Part shown: one piece after another, positions 10,885-52,114 of the stretch | Numbering within the stretch: position 1 is the stretch's first letter | Layout: each line of letters opens with the position of its first letter | Origin: Arcobacter sp. F2176 | GTDB lineage: Bacteria; Campylobacterota; Campylobacteria; Campylobacterales; Arcobacteraceae | DNA length: 57,683 nt | NCBI RefSeq assembly: GCF_004116465.1 | Contig: NZ_PDJV01000016.1 | Location: forward strand, 1-57,683 | Direction: 5' to 3' | Translations under genes and position numbers: made by a program | The notes under the pieces: model-generated | Database searches by the model: none | The model's input: the letters and a program-made list of their open reading frames with translations, nothing else | Told to the model about the DNA's origin: nothing

Positions 10885-12345
10885 TTAAATTTCTTTACAT
10901 CCCCATTCTGGGAAATTATTTCTAATATATGCATTAAGCTCAACTTCTGCTTTTGAATAATCTCTTATTTTTTCTTCTTTATTTACAGATTCATTCATAA
11001 CTGAAGATACAATCATACCAGCACCAACTGTTGAATTTGTATATCTATCTATGATAATAAAACTTCCTGTATATCTGTTTTCATTATATGGATCAACTGC
11101 GATTTGTCTGTCTATTGCTAGGGTACATTTTGCGATATCATTTAACTCTAATTGATTTGCTTTAACTTCATCAAAAGTATTAATATCTTTTTTATACTCT
11201 ATTGATTTGAATGCTCCATTTATAACAGAAGTTGCTCTTTTAATAATATAGTTATTATTAAGTTCAAGCTTTTTCTCATCCATCCAAACAACCATCACTT
11301 CAAGTTTATTTGATACTTGTGGAATAGAACTTGATTTTACAATCATATCTCCTCTACTGATATCAATCTCATCTTTTAATGTGATTGTTGTAGCCATTGG
11401 AGCAAATGCTGTTTGTATAGTCTCAACAGTTTCATCTTTTCCTATTGGTCTTAAATCTTTAATTTCATTTGAAACAATAGATTTTACAATAGAAGTTTTT
11501 CTTGATGGTAATACAGTGATTTCATCACCTACAGAAATTTTTCCACTTGCAATAGTCCCAGAAAATCCTCTAAAGTTTAAATGAGGTCTTGATACATATT
11601 GAACAGGTAATCTAAAGTCATGATTCTCAGCTTTATGAATATCAATAGTATCCAATAATTGCATAAGTGGTAGACCTTTGTACCAAGTAGATTTTGGTGA
11701 ATTTGTAAGGATATTATCTCCATCAAGTGCAGAGATTGGAATATACTCAAAATTGATATCACTGTTATGTGGAAGATTAGGAATAATCTGCGCATAATCT
11801 TTTTTAATCTCTTCAAATCTATCCGAGCTAAAATCAACTAAATCCATTTTATTTATTGCAACAATAAGATTCTTAATACCCAAAAGAGAAGCTATATAAG
11901 AGTGTCTTTTTGTTTGTGTTAGCACCCCAGATCTTGCATCAATTAGGATAATAGCCACATCTGCTGTACTAGCACCTGTTACCATATTTCTTGTGTATTG
12001 TTCATGTCCTGGAGTATCTGCAATGATAAACTTTCTTTTTTCAGTTGAGAAAAATCTATAGGCAACATCAATAGTAATACCTTGCTCTCTCTCACTTGCT
12101 AATCCATCAACTAAAAGTGCTAAGTCAATTTTATCACCAGTAGTTCCACTTTTTTTACTATCTTTTTCTATTGCAGCTAATTGGTCTTCAAAAATCATTT
12201 TTGAATCATAAAGTAATCTTCCAATTAAAGTACTTTTCCCATCATCAACACTACCACAAGTTATAAATCTTAGTATCTCTTTATTCTCATGCTCTTTTAA
12301 ATATTGTTCAATATTTTCAGCTATTAAATCTGATTGGTGTGCCAT
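10885..12345 (-). CDS. cysN: Sulfate adenylyltransferase subunit 1 (GTPase)
   Basis: The regulatory GTPase subunit of ATP sulfurylase, which couples GTP hydrolysis to APS formation. G-motifs are clear: GSVDDGKST (P-loop), DTPGHEQY and NKMD. Elongation-factor-like beta-barrel domains follow. I place the start at the ATG at 12345 (protein MAHQSDLI..., 486 residues), one base after the cysD stop (TAAGATG), with GAGGGG about 10 nt upstream. A longer frame to 12396 would overlap cysD by about 50 nt and add an unconserved basic leader. No CysC (APS kinase) domain is fused, which fits reduction of APS directly. Confidence 0.92.
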   Translation of the reverse strand: MAHQSDLIAENIEQYLKEHENKEILRFITCGSVDDGKSTLIGRLLYDSKMIFEDQLAAIEKDSKKSGTTGDKIDLALLVDGLASEREQGITIDVAYRFFSTEKRKFIIADTPGHEQYTRNMVTGASTADVAIILIDARSGVLTQTKRHSYIASLLGIKNLIVAINKMDLVDFSSDRFEEIKKDYAQIIPNLPHNSDINFEYIPISALDGDNILTNSPKSTWYKGLPLMQLLDTIDIHKAENHDFRLPVQYVSRPHLNFRGFSGTIASGKISVGDEITVLPSRKTSIVKSIVSNEIKDLRPIGKDETVETIQTAFAPMATTITLKDEIDISRGDMIVKSSSIPQVSNKLEVMVVWMDEKKLELNNNYIIKRATSVINGAFKSIEYKKDINTFDEVKANQLELNDIAKCTLAIDRQIAVDPYNENRYTGSFIIIDRYTNSTVGAGMIVSSVMNESVNKEEKIRDYSKAEVELNAYIRNNFPEWGCKEI

Positions 12346-24736: not shown

Positions 24737-24850
24737 CTACTTTCATTCAATTTCTGCGTTCGATACGAATTTTTTAGTTGTCACATACTTCTAGTATGCT
24801 CCGCCCAAAAAATTCTATCTGCCTTGAACTTGAATAAAATTAGTTATTTT
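24730..24850. repeat. 121-bp imperfect palindrome filling the gap between two convergent genes
   Basis: Outer arms AAAATAACTA (24730-24739) and TAGTTATTTT (24841-24850) are perfect complements and contain the stop codon of the flavoprotein gene and most of that of the restriction-endonuclease candidate. Further complementary blocks run inwards: ATTCAA/TTGAAT (24745-24750 / 24830-24835), GAATTTTTT/AAAAAATTC (24767-24775 / 24807-24815) and CATACT/AGTATG (24784-24789 / 24793-24798) around a 3-nt loop. The middle is more GC-rich than its surroundings. It may be a bidirectional terminator or a REP-like dispersed element. Confidence 0.7.
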
Positions 24851-25844
24851 AATATCTGACGGTTGTTCTTCTTTTTATATCGTCAATTTGTAAAAGAGTA
24901 TTAAGGTCGTGATACAAGTCAGATAAAGGTCTTAAAAATGGTTTTCCATTTATATTGAGAGGTAATTCTCTATTATTATCATTGTAATAATTTACTGCTT
25001 CTTGGTATGTGCTGACATCATTTGTTATTTGACTTTCGGTAATAGGTATATTAGGTATATACATTGCTAAAAAGCCAACTTTTATAAAGTTCCTCACTTT
25101 TATTTGACTTGTAAACTCATTGTAATCTGTAAAATAACCAACACCTATAATATCTGTAGTATAACCTGAAGCTAATAGTCTCTCTCTTGCAAAATTTGAT
25201 TTTACAGATATCCACAAGTTATTAGGTAAACACATTAATACAAAATCCCCATATGATTGTACATCATGATTTTGACTTCTGAAGAAGTTTGTGTTATCAA
25301 TAAGAGATTCCATAGCTGTTTCGAGTAATGTTTCAGAAATATTACCAAGAATAGACACTCCAGCTTGTCTTTCTGGTAAAGATTTTTCTCTAGTCCACTT
25401 TAAATTGTTAATTTCGTCAACTTGTTTTTTTATGTTTAGAAAGTTTTGTGATGAAACAGCTTCTCCAAATAAAGTTTCTGCATTTTTAATATTTATTGAA
25501 GGATCTGTATGAAGGTTTTTTAATAATAAATTAAAATCTGGAAATTGACTAAAAAATAAAACAAAAGCTTTTTGTATAGGATTGTTCTGCCATTCTGTTG
25601 TTGAAACTTTTTTCCCATTTATCTTTGTTAAAACTATTCTAGGATTATTTTCATCAATTAACCTTTGAATTAGGTTTGTATCTAATTCATCGTAATTAAT
25701 TTGAAATAATCCATTGTCTTCATTGAGTAATCCATATAAGTAAGTATAAACTTCTTGCAAAAAATGGGTTGCATTATGTAAATTGAAATCTATGTTAGTA
25801 GGTTCTTGAATAGTTACTAGAGTATTATTAAATTGAAATTGCAT
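24849..25844 (-). CDS. Putative type II restriction endonuclease (partner of the C5 methyltransferase)
   Basis: A 331-residue soluble protein with no family that I recognise with certainty. It is encoded divergently from, and 139 nt away from, a DNA cytosine methyltransferase, the usual arrangement of an endonuclease. A possible PD-(D/E)XK core is seen: an acidic helix (ETAMESL, about 174), GDFVL with Asp near 200 and ISVKSN with Lys near 215. The position normally held by Glu/Asp two before the lysine is Ser, so the assignment is tentative. Specificity cannot be predicted. Confidence 0.5.
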   Translation of the reverse strand: MQFQFNNTLVTIQEPTNIDFNLHNATHFLQEVYTYLYGLLNEDNGLFQINYDELDTNLIQRLIDENNPRIVLTKINGKKVSTTEWQNNPIQKAFVLFFSQFPDFNLLLKNLHTDPSINIKNAETLFGEAVSSQNFLNIKKQVDEINNLKWTREKSLPERQAGVSILGNISETLLETAMESLIDNTNFFRSQNHDVQSYGDFVLMCLPNNLWISVKSNFARERLLASGYTTDIIGVGYFTDYNEFTSQIKVRNFIKVGFLAMYIPNIPITESQITNDVSTYQEAVNYYNDNNRELPLNINGKPFLRPLSDLYHDLNTLLQIDDIKRRTTVRY

Positions 25845-25983
25845 TATTATGAAATCCTTATAAAAAGTTATTAAGTAAATTATATCTACATGATAATCAA
25901 AAGAAACTTCATTTATGTATTTTTTAATTTTCTAATAATATTAATCAGGGTATAATTATATACCTTAAATCAAAAGATAAACC
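25845..25983. promoter_or_regulatory. Divergent restriction/methyltransferase promoter region with palindromic operator
   Basis: The region contains a perfect inverted repeat, GGTATA-ATTA-TATACC (25949-25964), which includes TATAAT (25951-25956), a likely -10 box for the methyltransferase gene. The palindrome ends 20 nt before its ATG. Binding there would block transcription. The methyltransferase itself carries a ribbon-helix-helix-like domain, making it a candidate autorepressor. No separate controller (C) protein gene is seen. Confidence 0.6.
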
Positions 25984-27087
25984 ATGAATATGAATACTAC
26001 AAAACAAATACATGTAAAATTAGATGAAGATGTAAAAATAAAGTTAAAAATTAAATGTGCAAAATTAGATACAACAATTCAAGAGCATATAACAGATTTA
26101 GTTTTAAATGATTTGAAAAAAGATGAAGATGATAAAAAAGAAAAACATAAATTTAAATTTATTGATTTATTTTCTGGAGTTGGTGGATTAAGAATACCAT
26201 TTGATGAATTGGGTGGAGAATGTGTATTAAGTTCTGAAATAGACAAATATGCAAAAATGACTTATCAAGCTTATTTTGGTGACATGCCTAAAGGGGATAT
26301 TGCACAAATTAAACCGTGTGAAATAGAAGAGTTTGATATATTAGTTGGCGGGTTTCCTTGTCAACCATTTAGTTTAGCTGGACATAGAAAAGGCTTTACA
26401 GATACAAGAGGAACTCTTTTCTTTGAGATTGAAAAAATTTTACGATGTAAAATGCCTAAAGCCTTTTTACTTGAAAATGTAAAAGGACTAAAAGGGCATG
26501 ATAAAGGTAATACTTATAAGGTTATAAAAGAATCTTTAGAGTCTATGGGATACTTTGTGACAGAAAAAATATTAGCAGCAAGAGATTTTGGTTTACCTCA
26601 AAATAGAGAAAGAATTTATATAGTTGGTTTTTTAGATGAAAGACATTATGAAAAATTTGAATATCCTAATAAATTAAATGTCGAAACAAAACTAGGAAAT
26701 ATTTTAGAAAAAATAGTTGATGATAAGTATACAATTTCTGATAAATTATGGGCTGGGCATCAAAGAAGAAAAATAGAGCATAAGAAAAAAGGAAATGGAT
26801 TTGGATATGGATTATTTAATCATGATTCAGAGTATACAAATACAATTTCAGCTCGATATTACAAAGATGGTTCTGAAATTTTAATTGAGCAAATAAATAA
26901 AAATCCTAGAAAGCTAACTCCTTTAGAAGCAGCTAAGTTACAAGGTTTTCCTCCTGAAATAGTAGAAAAAGCAAAAAAAGCTGGAGTATCAGATACTCAA
27001 TTATATAGACAGTTTGGAAATGCTGTTCCAGTTAATGTTGTTAGAGAAGTTGCAAAAAAGATATATGAAGTGATATATAATAATTAA
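25984..27087 (+). CDS. DNA (cytosine-5) methyltransferase with N-terminal ribbon-helix-helix-like domain
   Basis: A 367-residue protein. All key C5-methyltransferase motifs are present: I FIDLFSGVGG (about 59), IV GGFPCQPFS with catalytic Cys near 126, VI ENVKG (about 165), VIII QNRERIYIVGF, IX RKLTPLEAAKLQGFP and X FGNAVPVNVV. Before motif I lie about 50 extra residues: a beta-strand-like KQIHVKLDEDV followed by two helices with the turn DTTIQEHITDLV, the pattern of a CopG/Arc-type DNA-binding fold. Some C5 methyltransferases (for example M.EcoRII, M.SsoII) use N-terminal extensions for autoregulation; here the extension appears to be of RHH type. Modifies DNA to protect against the divergent endonuclease candidate. 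Confidence 0.88.
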   Translation: MNMNTTKQIHVKLDEDVKIKLKIKCAKLDTTIQEHITDLVLNDLKKDEDDKKEKHKFKFIDLFSGVGGLRIPFDELGGECVLSSEIDKYAKMTYQAYFGDMPKGDIAQIKPCEIEEFDILVGGFPCQPFSLAGHRKGFTDTRGTLFFEIEKILRCKMPKAFLLENVKGLKGHDKGNTYKVIKESLESMGYFVTEKILAARDFGLPQNRERIYIVGFLDERHYEKFEYPNKLNVETKLGNILEKIVDDKYTISDKLWAGHQRRKIEHKKKGNGFGYGLFNHDSEYTNTISARYYKDGSEILIEQINKNPRKLTPLEAAKLQGFPPEIVEKAKKAGVSDTQLYRQFGNAVPVNVVREVAKKIYEVIYNN

Positions 27088-27251: not shown

Positions 27252-27461
27252 ATTGAAGAGGCATTAAAAAATCTTAATAAAAGAGAAGAGGAATTTCTTT
27301 TAAAAGTTGCAGATAAAACTTATTGGAGTAGAATCATTAAAACAAGAGATTTTATTTCTCTTCATTATGTTGATATTGATGCAGAAACAGTTTTTGATAT
27401 TTGTTCTAATGAACTAGAAGAGATAGAAAGAAAGATTTTAGAAGTTAAAAATAATAATTAA
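27252..27461 (+). pseudogene. HepT-like (DUF86) ribonuclease toxin remnant
   Basis: A frame of about 70 codons without a start codon (TGA immediately upstream) ends at the TAA at 27461. It matches the C-terminal half of HepT/DUF86 proteins: WSRIIKTRDFISLHYVDIDAETVFDICSNELEEIE. Functional HepT proteins have an Rx4HxY active site; here the aligned residues read RDFISLHY, so the first histidine position appears to be leucine. No MntA-type nucleotidyltransferase antitoxin gene is adjacent. Together these indicate a decayed toxin gene. Confidence 0.6.
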
Positions 27462-49573: not shown

Positions 49574-52114
49574 TTACATTCTTATCTCTTTGTTTGGTTT
49601 TCCTATATGGTAACCTTGAACATAATCAATATCAATATCTTTTAAAAAGTCTAAAATCTCTTCATTTTCTACAAATTCAGCAATTGTTTTAACTTTTAAT
49701 TCTTTTGCTAAAGCAACGATTGATTTCACAAAAGCCACATCTTTTTTATCTTTAGTTATATTTATAATAAAATCTCCATCAATCTTAATATAATCAATTG
49801 GAAACTTTTTAATATAATGAAAAGAAGAAAATCCTGAACCAAAATCATCTATTGCAAAACTAAAGCCTTGCAGTTTAAGGTTTTGAACAAATCTTTCTAA
49901 TAAAGAGAAACTTTTAACAGTCTCTCTTTCTGTAATTTCAAATACTATATTATCTCTGTTTATATTATAATTGTGGGCAAGTACTACTATTTTGTTTATA
50001 AATTCACTTATAATTAAAGCTTTTGGAGAAAGATTTATAAATAAAAGACCTTGATAATTTGTTTCATTGATTTTTGCAAAAGCTTTTTCTATTACCATAT
50101 AATCCATTTTATGAACTATTCCTAGAGATTCTGCTGTTTCTATAAATTTAGCAGCTGGTAAATACTCTCCATCTATTTCTATTCTCATTAAAAGTTCATT
50201 TATCTCACATTTGTTTGTTTTTAGATTTACTATTGGTTGAAAATGAGGAATAATATTTTCATTTTTAATAGCATTTAAAACAAGCATGGATTTATCTTCA
50301 GCTTCCTTATGAATCTCTTCTAAATCATATTCAGTTGGAAATTTAATTGAGTTTTTACCCATAGTTTTTGCTTCATACATCATTGCATCTGCTATGTTAA
50401 ATAACTCAATTTGTAAAGTTGAGTGTTCAGGGTACATAGCCATACCAATAGAAACAGTCATGCTACATTTAGTTCCATCAGGGCTTATTAGTTCTAAATC
50501 ACTTACATTATTTAAAATTCTTTGCGCAACTGTAAAGGCCTCTTCTTTATTGCACTCTGGTAAGATTAGGGTAAATTCATCTCCTCCATATCTTGAAAGT
50601 ATATCTTCATCCCTTTTTGAATCAGCAAGTATATTTCCAAGTGCTTTTAAGAATTCATCCCCAAAGGTATGGCCATGAGCATCATTTATTGGTTTAAAGT
50701 TATCACAATCTATAACTAATAGTCCAAAAGTGTAGTCATGTCTAGCGGCTCTTTTAATCTCATATTCCATTAAATCTCTAAATACTCTTTGTGTAAATAA
50801 TGATGTTAGTGGATCTCTAGTGGCATAAAATTCTAGGTTTTCAGTGTATTTGTTTATGGCTTTAATTGAACCTACAAGGTTTAATAAAGTTGTTAAGATA
50901 GAGTCTATAACAATTGAATGAATTGAGTCTTTCTCTAAATTTGATTGAATTCCAAGTCCAACAATTCCTCCAATTTTTGGAGCATCTAAAAGAATAGATT
51001 TTGCTTCATGTTCTATATCTTTTATATCTAAAGCTATAAGAGAATAATTTTCATTTGTAAAATTGTGATTAATACTACAATCAAGAATATCTAACTTGTG
51101 GTGAGATTTAATCATTTCAAATGATACTGATTCAATGTGTTTAATTACTTTATCATTTGGTTTTCCTAACCAAAAAATTTCAATCTCATAAAATTCATCA
51201 TTTGCTTTAAATATAGTAATAAGGCAATGAACTGGCAATACAAGATTTATGTCATGCAATAAGTCTTTTATATACTCTTTCCAGTCCCTAATCACATCAG
51301 AGGTTATTATCATTTTATCTAGTAATTTTACTTCAAACTCTAATATATCTTTATCAACTGCTATATTTCTTAGCTTATTGCTTAAATCAGTTAATCCATT
51401 CATTATGTGGTTAAACTCGGTGAAACTTTTTTTAGGAGGTGATAAGTCTAAAGTTTTAAAATCTTTTACACTATTTATACTTTCTATTTTGTCTTTAAAC
51501 CCTTTAATCGAAATATCTATTTTTTTTAGTAGATTTCCAGAAATTAGAAATGCACAAAATATCATAAATGGTAAGATTATTAATGACAATAAAAAGTATT
51601 GGTATTTAGTTTCATTTATTAGATAATTAAAATCATATTCTATATCAACAGCACCTAAAATATCACCGACTTTCGAATTTGTATGGCAGGCTAAACACTC
51701 TTGTTTTGCCAATATTGGAGTTATATTTCTAATTTTATTATCTTTTGAGAGGTTAAATTCTTTTTTTGTATCAAAGACATATTGTAGATTTTTTGTGATT
51801 TCTCCTTGATTTATTTTACCAAAGAGATCTTCAACTTTTTTTGAACGGTAGACTTCAATACTATATGAAGACTCTTTAAATGAACTTTTAATATCTCCCA
51901 TAAATTGTGTTATTTCTTCTCTTGTCCAGCCTTTTCTCATAACTTGATACATAGAGTTAAAGATTTGTTTTGATAATGATTGCGATACTCTTTCATTTTC
52001 TTGAATTGTTAAATTTGTATGAATTGTCGAAGAAAAAAAATAAAAGATAATAAAAAGTAATAAGCTAATGGCTAGTATTGAAATCCGGAAATAATTCTTT
52101 AGTGTTTTAATCAT
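49574..52114 (-). CDS. GGDEF-EAL protein with periplasmic CxxCH (heme-type) sensor
   Basis: An 846-residue membrane protein: helix (about 10-33), periplasmic domain (35-165) with a heme-attachment motif ECLACHT near residue 139, helix (about 170-197), a HAMP-like/GAF-like region, GGDEF domain with intact GGDEF near 510 and EAL domain (about 605-846). In the EAL domain the signature reads ELL and DDFGSGFSS and KTIAEFVE are kept, so phosphodiesterase activity is possible. The single-heme periplasmic part resembles Tll0287-like redox/gas sensors. It should adjust cyclic di-GMP to a redox or gaseous signal. Confidence 0.88.
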   Translation of the reverse strand: MIKTLKNYFRISILAISLLLFIIFYFFSSTIHTNLTIQENERVSQSLSKQIFNSMYQVMRKGWTREEITQFMGDIKSSFKESSYSIEVYRSKKVEDLFGKINQGEITKNLQYVFDTKKEFNLSKDNKIRNITPILAKQECLACHTNSKVGDILGAVDIEYDFNYLINETKYQYFLLSLIILPFMIFCAFLISGNLLKKIDISIKGFKDKIESINSVKDFKTLDLSPPKKSFTEFNHIMNGLTDLSNKLRNIAVDKDILEFEVKLLDKMIITSDVIRDWKEYIKDLLHDINLVLPVHCLITIFKANDEFYEIEIFWLGKPNDKVIKHIESVSFEMIKSHHKLDILDCSINHNFTNENYSLIALDIKDIEHEAKSILLDAPKIGGIVGLGIQSNLEKDSIHSIVIDSILTTLLNLVGSIKAINKYTENLEFYATRDPLTSLFTQRVFRDLMEYEIKRAARHDYTFGLLVIDCDNFKPINDAHGHTFGDEFLKALGNILADSKRDEDILSRYGGDEFTLILPECNKEEAFTVAQRILNNVSDLELISPDGTKCSMTVSIGMAMYPEHSTLQIELFNIADAMMYEAKTMGKNSIKFPTEYDLEEIHKEAEDKSMLVLNAIKNENIIPHFQPIVNLKTNKCEINELLMRIEIDGEYLPAAKFIETAESLGIVHKMDYMVIEKAFAKINETNYQGLLFINLSPKALIISEFINKIVVLAHNYNINRDNIVFEITERETVKSFSLLERFVQNLKLQGFSFAIDDFGSGFSSFHYIKKFPIDYIKIDGDFIINITKDKKDVAFVKSIVALAKELKVKTIAEFVENEEILDFLKDIDIDYVQGYHIGKPNKEIRM

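Follow-up and report, generated by a model that had tools for sequence, protein, structure and literature searches.

An inverted repeat upstream of an RHH-headed cytosine methyltransferase gene as a putative operator for the enzyme itself

A restriction-modification (R-M) system needs methylation to come before cutting, without overproduction of the methyltransferase. In the window, the whole stretch of 57,683 nucleotides of Arcobacter sp. F2176 analyzed here, the gene of an RHH-headed C5-cytosine DNA methyltransferase is preceded by a short inverted repeat. The question raised by this locus is whether that repeat is read by the enzyme itself. The present work suggests that it is likely to be the operator of the methyltransferase's own fused RHH head (probability about 0.75), because a box of the same spacing accompanies heads of this type and not 134 other methyltransferases. 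The coordinates of the features are collected in Table 1.

Table 1. Features of the methyltransferase locus in the window
Feature	Position	Strand	Evidence
RHH-headed C5-cytosine DNA methyltransferase, 367 aa	25984..27087	+	PF00145 E 3.9e-100; ParG 21.6 bits
N-terminal RHH head, residues 1-50, strand KQIHVKL	25984..26133	+	Pfam ParG above cut-off
Divergent ORF, 331 aa, presumed partner restriction enzyme	24849..25844	-	Position and orientation only
Proposed operator GGTATA-ATTA-TATACC (GG-N12-CC)	25949..25964		Same register in 9/9 KQ[VIM]H-headed relatives, 0/134 others
TATAAT inside the repeat, candidate -10 of the methyltransferase gene	25951..25956	+	Sequence
TCTAAT, alternative -10, 18 nt upstream of the box	25931..25936	+	Pattern in relatives, inference
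TATAAT, candidate -10 of the divergent ORF	25879..25884	-	Sequence; the promoter scan gave two other - strand sites

The inverted repeat in the intergenic region

The 16-mer GGTATAATTATATACC is present on the forward strand at 25949-25964, as an earlier note on this DNA had quoted it. The same note called it a perfect palindrome, which is incorrect: the reverse complement, GGTATATAATTATACC, differs from the forward strand, and the central ATTA is non-palindromic. The element is an interrupted inverted repeat, in which 6-bp arms (GGTATA and TATACC) surround an ATTA spacer that is not self-complementary. A gap of 19 nt separates its end from the methyltransferase ATG (25984). The TATAAT that had been noticed within the repeat was confirmed on the forward strand and also appears on the reverse strand (25960-25955).

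The intergenic region is 139 nt long with 17% GC, and the 16-mer is its sole repeat in which the arms measure 6 bp or more, each arm has two or more G/C and the spacer is 0-10. In 500 shuffles of this region the mean number of comparable repeats was 0.09, and 9.2% of the shuffles contained at least one; when AT-only arms were admitted, the proportion of shuffles holding a repeat rose to 86%. Over the whole window, 86 such repeats were counted as against 60-75 in five shuffles, a slight excess only. The 3.27-Mb assembly contains no second exact copy of the 16-mer, and an excess of near-copies that would point to a genome-wide regulon was not detected in it (5 sites with at most 2 mismatches, the 16-mer included, vs 4 for the reversed pattern). 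Judged by these counts, the sequence at 25949-25964 is by itself mildly unusual and does not prove function; the argument rests on conservation.

The RHH head and its distribution

The window enzyme carries a PF00145 domain together with the motifs DLFSGVGG and GGFPCQPF, as is characteristic of C5-cytosine methyltransferases. The RHH nature of its N-terminal head, which the earlier note had proposed, was supported by two lines of comparison. In Pfam, the full protein passes the ParG cut-off narrowly (21.6 vs 21.4 bits), and the head scanned alone passes it clearly (26.9 bits). In PDB, a profile built from 12 heads found AvtR first (E 0.0019), followed by HP0222, E73 and 56B, all of which we take to be RHH proteins. 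At the lower ranks of this search, which gave 17 sequences up to E 10, ORF56 and ParG were mixed with NF-Y histone-fold chains and others.

Most family matches of single heads are weak. With phmmer, residues 1-59 of the window enzyme matched only ParG (E 0.023) and 56B (E 0.18) in PDB up to E 10, both weakly, and ParG was reached at E <= 1 by just two of the 12 heads. The Pfam families 56B_RHH and RHH_10 remained below their cut-offs on the window head; no HTH family was listed for it by Pfam, RHH families being listed instead. An AlphaFold2 model of the head monomer from a two-row alignment consists of one long helix (mean pLDDT 88) and lacks the RHH fold. Low weight was given to this model, since a shallow alignment underlies it and the strand of an RHH protein finds its pairing partner in the dimer only. 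All 12 heads share the K and Q of the strand, and PMC10853773 describes the RHH strand as the part entering the major groove.

Relatives were classed by the strand motif of their heads, either KQ[VIM]H, the type of the window, or KQ[VI]N. Among the 145 distinct methyltransferases that passed the motif filter, 10 have a KQ[VIM]H head, the window enzyme included; the His of this motif is a selection criterion and not a result. The KQ[VI]N heads, L175 (KQVN) and L188 (KQIN), were placed among the other methyltransferases in the counts given below.

Heads of the same kind on the same catalytic domain were found on two lactobacillar plasmids (L036 and L076), in a faecal phage record (L077) and on a viral contig (L088, identical with L194, L197 and L210), which was alone in the viral-contig scans in having a head of the KQ[VIM]H type. 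The plasmid sample consists of L036, L076 and L190 out of 7 records covering at least 80% of the query, and more plasmid members may exist. In Clostridia, the class of G423, six of the 391 sampled genomes encode a head of this kind (L172-L177); L188, like L175 of the KQ[VI]N type, belongs to the same class and is the one relative added by searching the families and orders around the matches. In Bacilli, the class of G421, 13 of 398 genomes matched, one of them (L168) into the head, which is of another type. In the phylum of the window (397 genomes, its own included; residues 1-129, E <= 1e-12), no stop-free match to the head was found beyond its own genome, and two matches reach residues 19-20 but with internal stops, in a search that is blind to heads too diverged to align. 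By eye, the methyltransferases L093/L206, L126/L131 and L168/L190 also have RHH-like extensions at the N terminus, which differ from the KQ[VIM]H type.

Conservation of the upstream box

Within -60 to -10 of the start codon, the pattern GGTA[CT]-N9-CC occurs in all nine KQ[VIM]H-headed relatives and in none of 134 other methyltransferases, the latter being those with enough upstream DNA, for which any possible start codon was allowed. The box begins 28-41 nt before the start codon in all nine relatives, and CC stands at its positions 15-16 in 10 of 10 genes with the window counted, in agreement with the GG-N12-CC spacing of the window repeat. This pattern was fixed after the relatives had been seen, whereas GGTATA had been fixed before. 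Within -50 to -18, GGTATA was found in six of nine relatives as against 3 of 134 others, a count that leaves out the GGTATA of L036 at -8 (Shine-Dalgarno region), and GGTA[CT] in nine of nine as against 8 of 134.

Shuffles of the regions gave an expectation of 1.04 relatives with GGTATA in place of the six observed (P 4e-5, an optimistic value that ignores shared descent). GGTATA is moreover the commonest 6-mer of the ten regions (7/10), and only 4 of 1000 shuffled sets reach 7 with any 6-mer; the corresponding test with the commonest 5-mer is weaker (28 of 1000). As the ten genes are of common descent, and the KQ[VI]N pair represents a single lineage, these P values overstate independence. 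When the 60 nt upstream of the window gene were aligned with gaps, the KQ[VIM]H relatives showed 34-38 identities to them and the KQ[VI]N pair 36-39, so that there is no sign of a general upstream similarity that would explain the box. A second upstream copy with CC in register is present in L077 and L174 (at -99 and -93). In the two KQ[VI]N-headed genes, L175 and L188, ACTA replaces GGTA in the same register.

Further matches to GGTA[CT]N9CC exist in the window. One, at 50431-50446, lies inside an 846-aa ORF and was taken as chance; another is located at 11684 on the reverse strand.

The earlier note had expected the palindrome to recur upstream of orthologous genes. GGTA[CT] and CC do recur, with the same spacing, in every KQ[VIM]H relative, whereas two full GGTATA arms are confined to the window and the second half in the relatives is CC, within CCC in eight of nine. 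CCC is also present in the KQ[VI]N pair. On this comparison the part of the box that follows the head type is GGTA, and CC may belong to an outer frame rather than be read by the head. An extra GGGA or GGGG is found about 11 bp upstream of GGTA in seven of the nine relatives, and is missing from the window. A frame of this kind (GGGA...TCCC or TGGG...CCCA) stands upstream of 12 of 144 methyltransferases, as compared with 3.1 expected from shuffles, and five of the 12 are RHH-headed enzymes of the KQ type. Since it occurs with other heads too, part of the element in the relatives is not head-specific.

The excess of this frame is what would be expected if the box served another regulator, or were part of a frame common to many R-M promoters, and did not belong to the fused head. 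Against this, GGTA tracks the head type, the spaced motif being found at none of the 134 others and ACTA accompanying KQ[VI]N heads, and the window, which has no outer frame, still keeps GGTA and TACC. An origin of the box outside the fused head is considered unlikely.

TGGG...CCCA frames around inner repeats were also observed at methyltransferases with other N-terminal heads (L093, L098, L103, L196 and L206), and the inner repeat of L098, GGACATAATGTCC, resembles the SsoII operator.

The position of the box relative to the promoter can be read in two ways. A simple promoter scan listed no site on the forward strand. Inspection by eye showed a TATAAT-like hexamer upstream of GGTA in seven relatives, at a distance of 17 or 18 nt in L036, L076, L077, L172, L173 and L174 and of 21 nt in L088; L176 (TATATT) and L177 (TATAAT) have none upstream, and their hexamer is only within or beside the box, where the window has one too. 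The window has both hexamers, TCTAAT at -18 and TATAAT in the repeat, so that the -10 of the methyltransferase gene may be placed at either of the two sites in Table 1. With either placement, a protein on the repeat would cover the -10 or the first transcribed bases and could block the polymerase.

The repeat could also be merely a promoter element, an AT-rich -10 region that is symmetric by chance. Shuffled intergenic regions do produce comparable repeats at the rate given above, the repeat holds TATAAT on both strands, and in L177 and L176 as well a -10-like hexamer is located in the box or next to it. The GGTA...CC register is nevertheless kept in all nine same-headed relatives, seven of which have their TATAAT-like hexamer upstream, and in none of the 134 others, which makes a promoter element alone an improbable explanation.

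As RNA, the repeat could tune translation from within the 5' leader, by a hairpin with a GGUAUA/UAUACC stem and an AUUA loop. The window 16-mer does fold into a 6-bp stem of -3.9 kcal/mol, and a stretch of 44 nt into an 8-bp stem of -6.9. Among the 16-mers of the nine relatives, however, five are unfolded, L172 pairs only inside (-0.1), L076 and L176 form marginal stems (-0.2 and -0.1) and L173 a 5-bp stem (-3.0), while their 44-nt stretches fold variously. The hairpin was rejected as the main function, the stem not being kept in relatives whereas GGTA and CC are, and a leader hairpin is the least probable of the explanations weighed here.

Comparison with self-regulating systems and the proposed mechanism

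Several modification enzymes are described as regulators of their own genes in the literature consulted. M.Ecl18kI, which binds an inverted repeat (a 15-mer), is both a repressor of its own gene and an indirect activator of the restriction gene (PMC3695355). A review covers modification enzymes in which an N-terminal helix-turn-helix domain mediates repression of the enzyme's gene, and gives Omega as an RHH protein binding a recognition sequence in its own promoter (PMC3874152). M.EcoRII has a fused repressor domain, and methylation of its sites is the condition under which it represses its own gene (PMC12707154). The self-repressing methyltransferases described in this literature act via a helix-turn-helix head.

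The window locus resembles the SsoII/Ecl18kI systems in its C5-methyltransferase with an N-terminal DNA-binding head, its inverted repeat before the methyltransferase start and its divergent neighbor. Residues 63-364 of the window enzyme are 57.7% identical to SsoII-like plasmid enzymes, and the SsoII-like plasmid locus L215 has divergent restriction and methyltransferase genes with GGACAAATTGTCC 31 nt before the methyltransferase start. In the window, the putative operator lies 19 nt before the start and is conserved together with the head. The head itself is not of the HTH type: it matches RHH, whereas the head of M.SsoII is predicted to be HTH. The repeats also differ, GGTATA-N4-TATACC in the window as against GGACAAATTGTCC, and the neighboring ORF of the window has no EcoRII-C match while that of L215 has one. 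A likeness to EcoRII is seen in the RHH-headed relatives, which adjoin EcoRII-type restriction enzymes; the window differs in that its neighbor has no EcoRII domain, and in that CCNGG is absent from its intergenic region whereas M.EcoRII represses only with methylated sites.

ParG, Arc and CopG are RHH autorepressors, and the window case differs from them in that the RHH domain is fused to a modification enzyme. Autorepression by the enzyme is inferred as the most probable consequence of binding because of the precedent of M.SsoII, M.Ecl18kI and M.EcoRII, whose fused repressor heads are of the HTH type. The RHH heads would dimerize, and two dimers, or one dimer and a weaker contact, may occupy two GGTA half-sites that lie 12 bp apart, about one helical turn; both DNA binding and dimer geometry are part of the model. 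Bound heads would then obstruct RNA polymerase at the promoter or start site of the methyltransferase gene, which is repression rather than activation by the protein. On entry of the system into a cell, the promoter would be free and methylation would come first; as the enzyme builds up, its own gene would be shut down and its level held. Any effect on the divergent ORF is likewise conjectural.

An RHH-headed self-regulating cytosine methyltransferase was not found in the accessible text of the open-licence literature searched, including PMC3346939 and PMC1282579. We incline, by somewhat more than an even chance, to the view that RHH-headed C5-methyltransferases are a distinct self-regulating class with the operator GGTA[CT]-N9-CC common to distant bacteria, that His or Asn in KQx[H/N] tracks the switch of half-site from GGTA to ACTA, and that RHH and HTH heads have been exchanged on one catalytic chassis with matching operators. 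If this is true, two different DNA-binding folds have arrived at the same solution on one enzyme core, and natural head/operator pairs (His-GGTA, Asn-ACTA) would be available for reading RHH recognition.

The divergent ORF is presumed to be the natural candidate for the restriction enzyme. No match to it was found in Pfam, NCBIfam, PDB, plasmids or phages, and no relative in 59 related genomes or in the viral contigs. Weak PHROG matches were obtained, together with one weak PADLOC match to an oligonucleotide-cyclase model (E 0.00039, 17.7 bits). Its residues 194-215 (D...SVK) fit PD-(D/E)xK by eye, as one of seven stretches agreeing with the loose pattern. The AlphaFold2 model was unusable (pLDDT 34), and blastp revealed no meaningful likeness to the EcoRII-type enzymes of the relatives.

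These results bear on whether the repeat, as an operator, serves mainly for activation of the divergent ORF by the bound enzyme, as with M.Ecl18kI, rather than for self-repression only. The divergent layout resembles the SsoII-like locus, and M.Ecl18kI does both, repressing itself and activating the restriction gene (PMC3695355). The divergent ORF, however, is not recognizable as a restriction enzyme, 65 bp separate its candidate -10 from the repeat, and in the relatives the EcoRII-like gene is in tandem (L036, L077, L088, L172 and L174; L076 by annotation) or, in L177, downstream on the opposite strand. Activation as the main role is possible but doubtful, and self-repression through the fused head is preferred.

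Two minor observations concern other neighboring genes. Directly downstream of the methyltransferase gene, a 69-aa frame without a start codon (27252-27458, forward strand) is a remnant corresponding to the C-terminal part of a HepT-like ribonuclease (PF01934, E 3.4e-07). Frames resembling Vsr-like mismatch endonucleases by eye adjoin the RHH-headed methyltransferases L176, L175 and L188.
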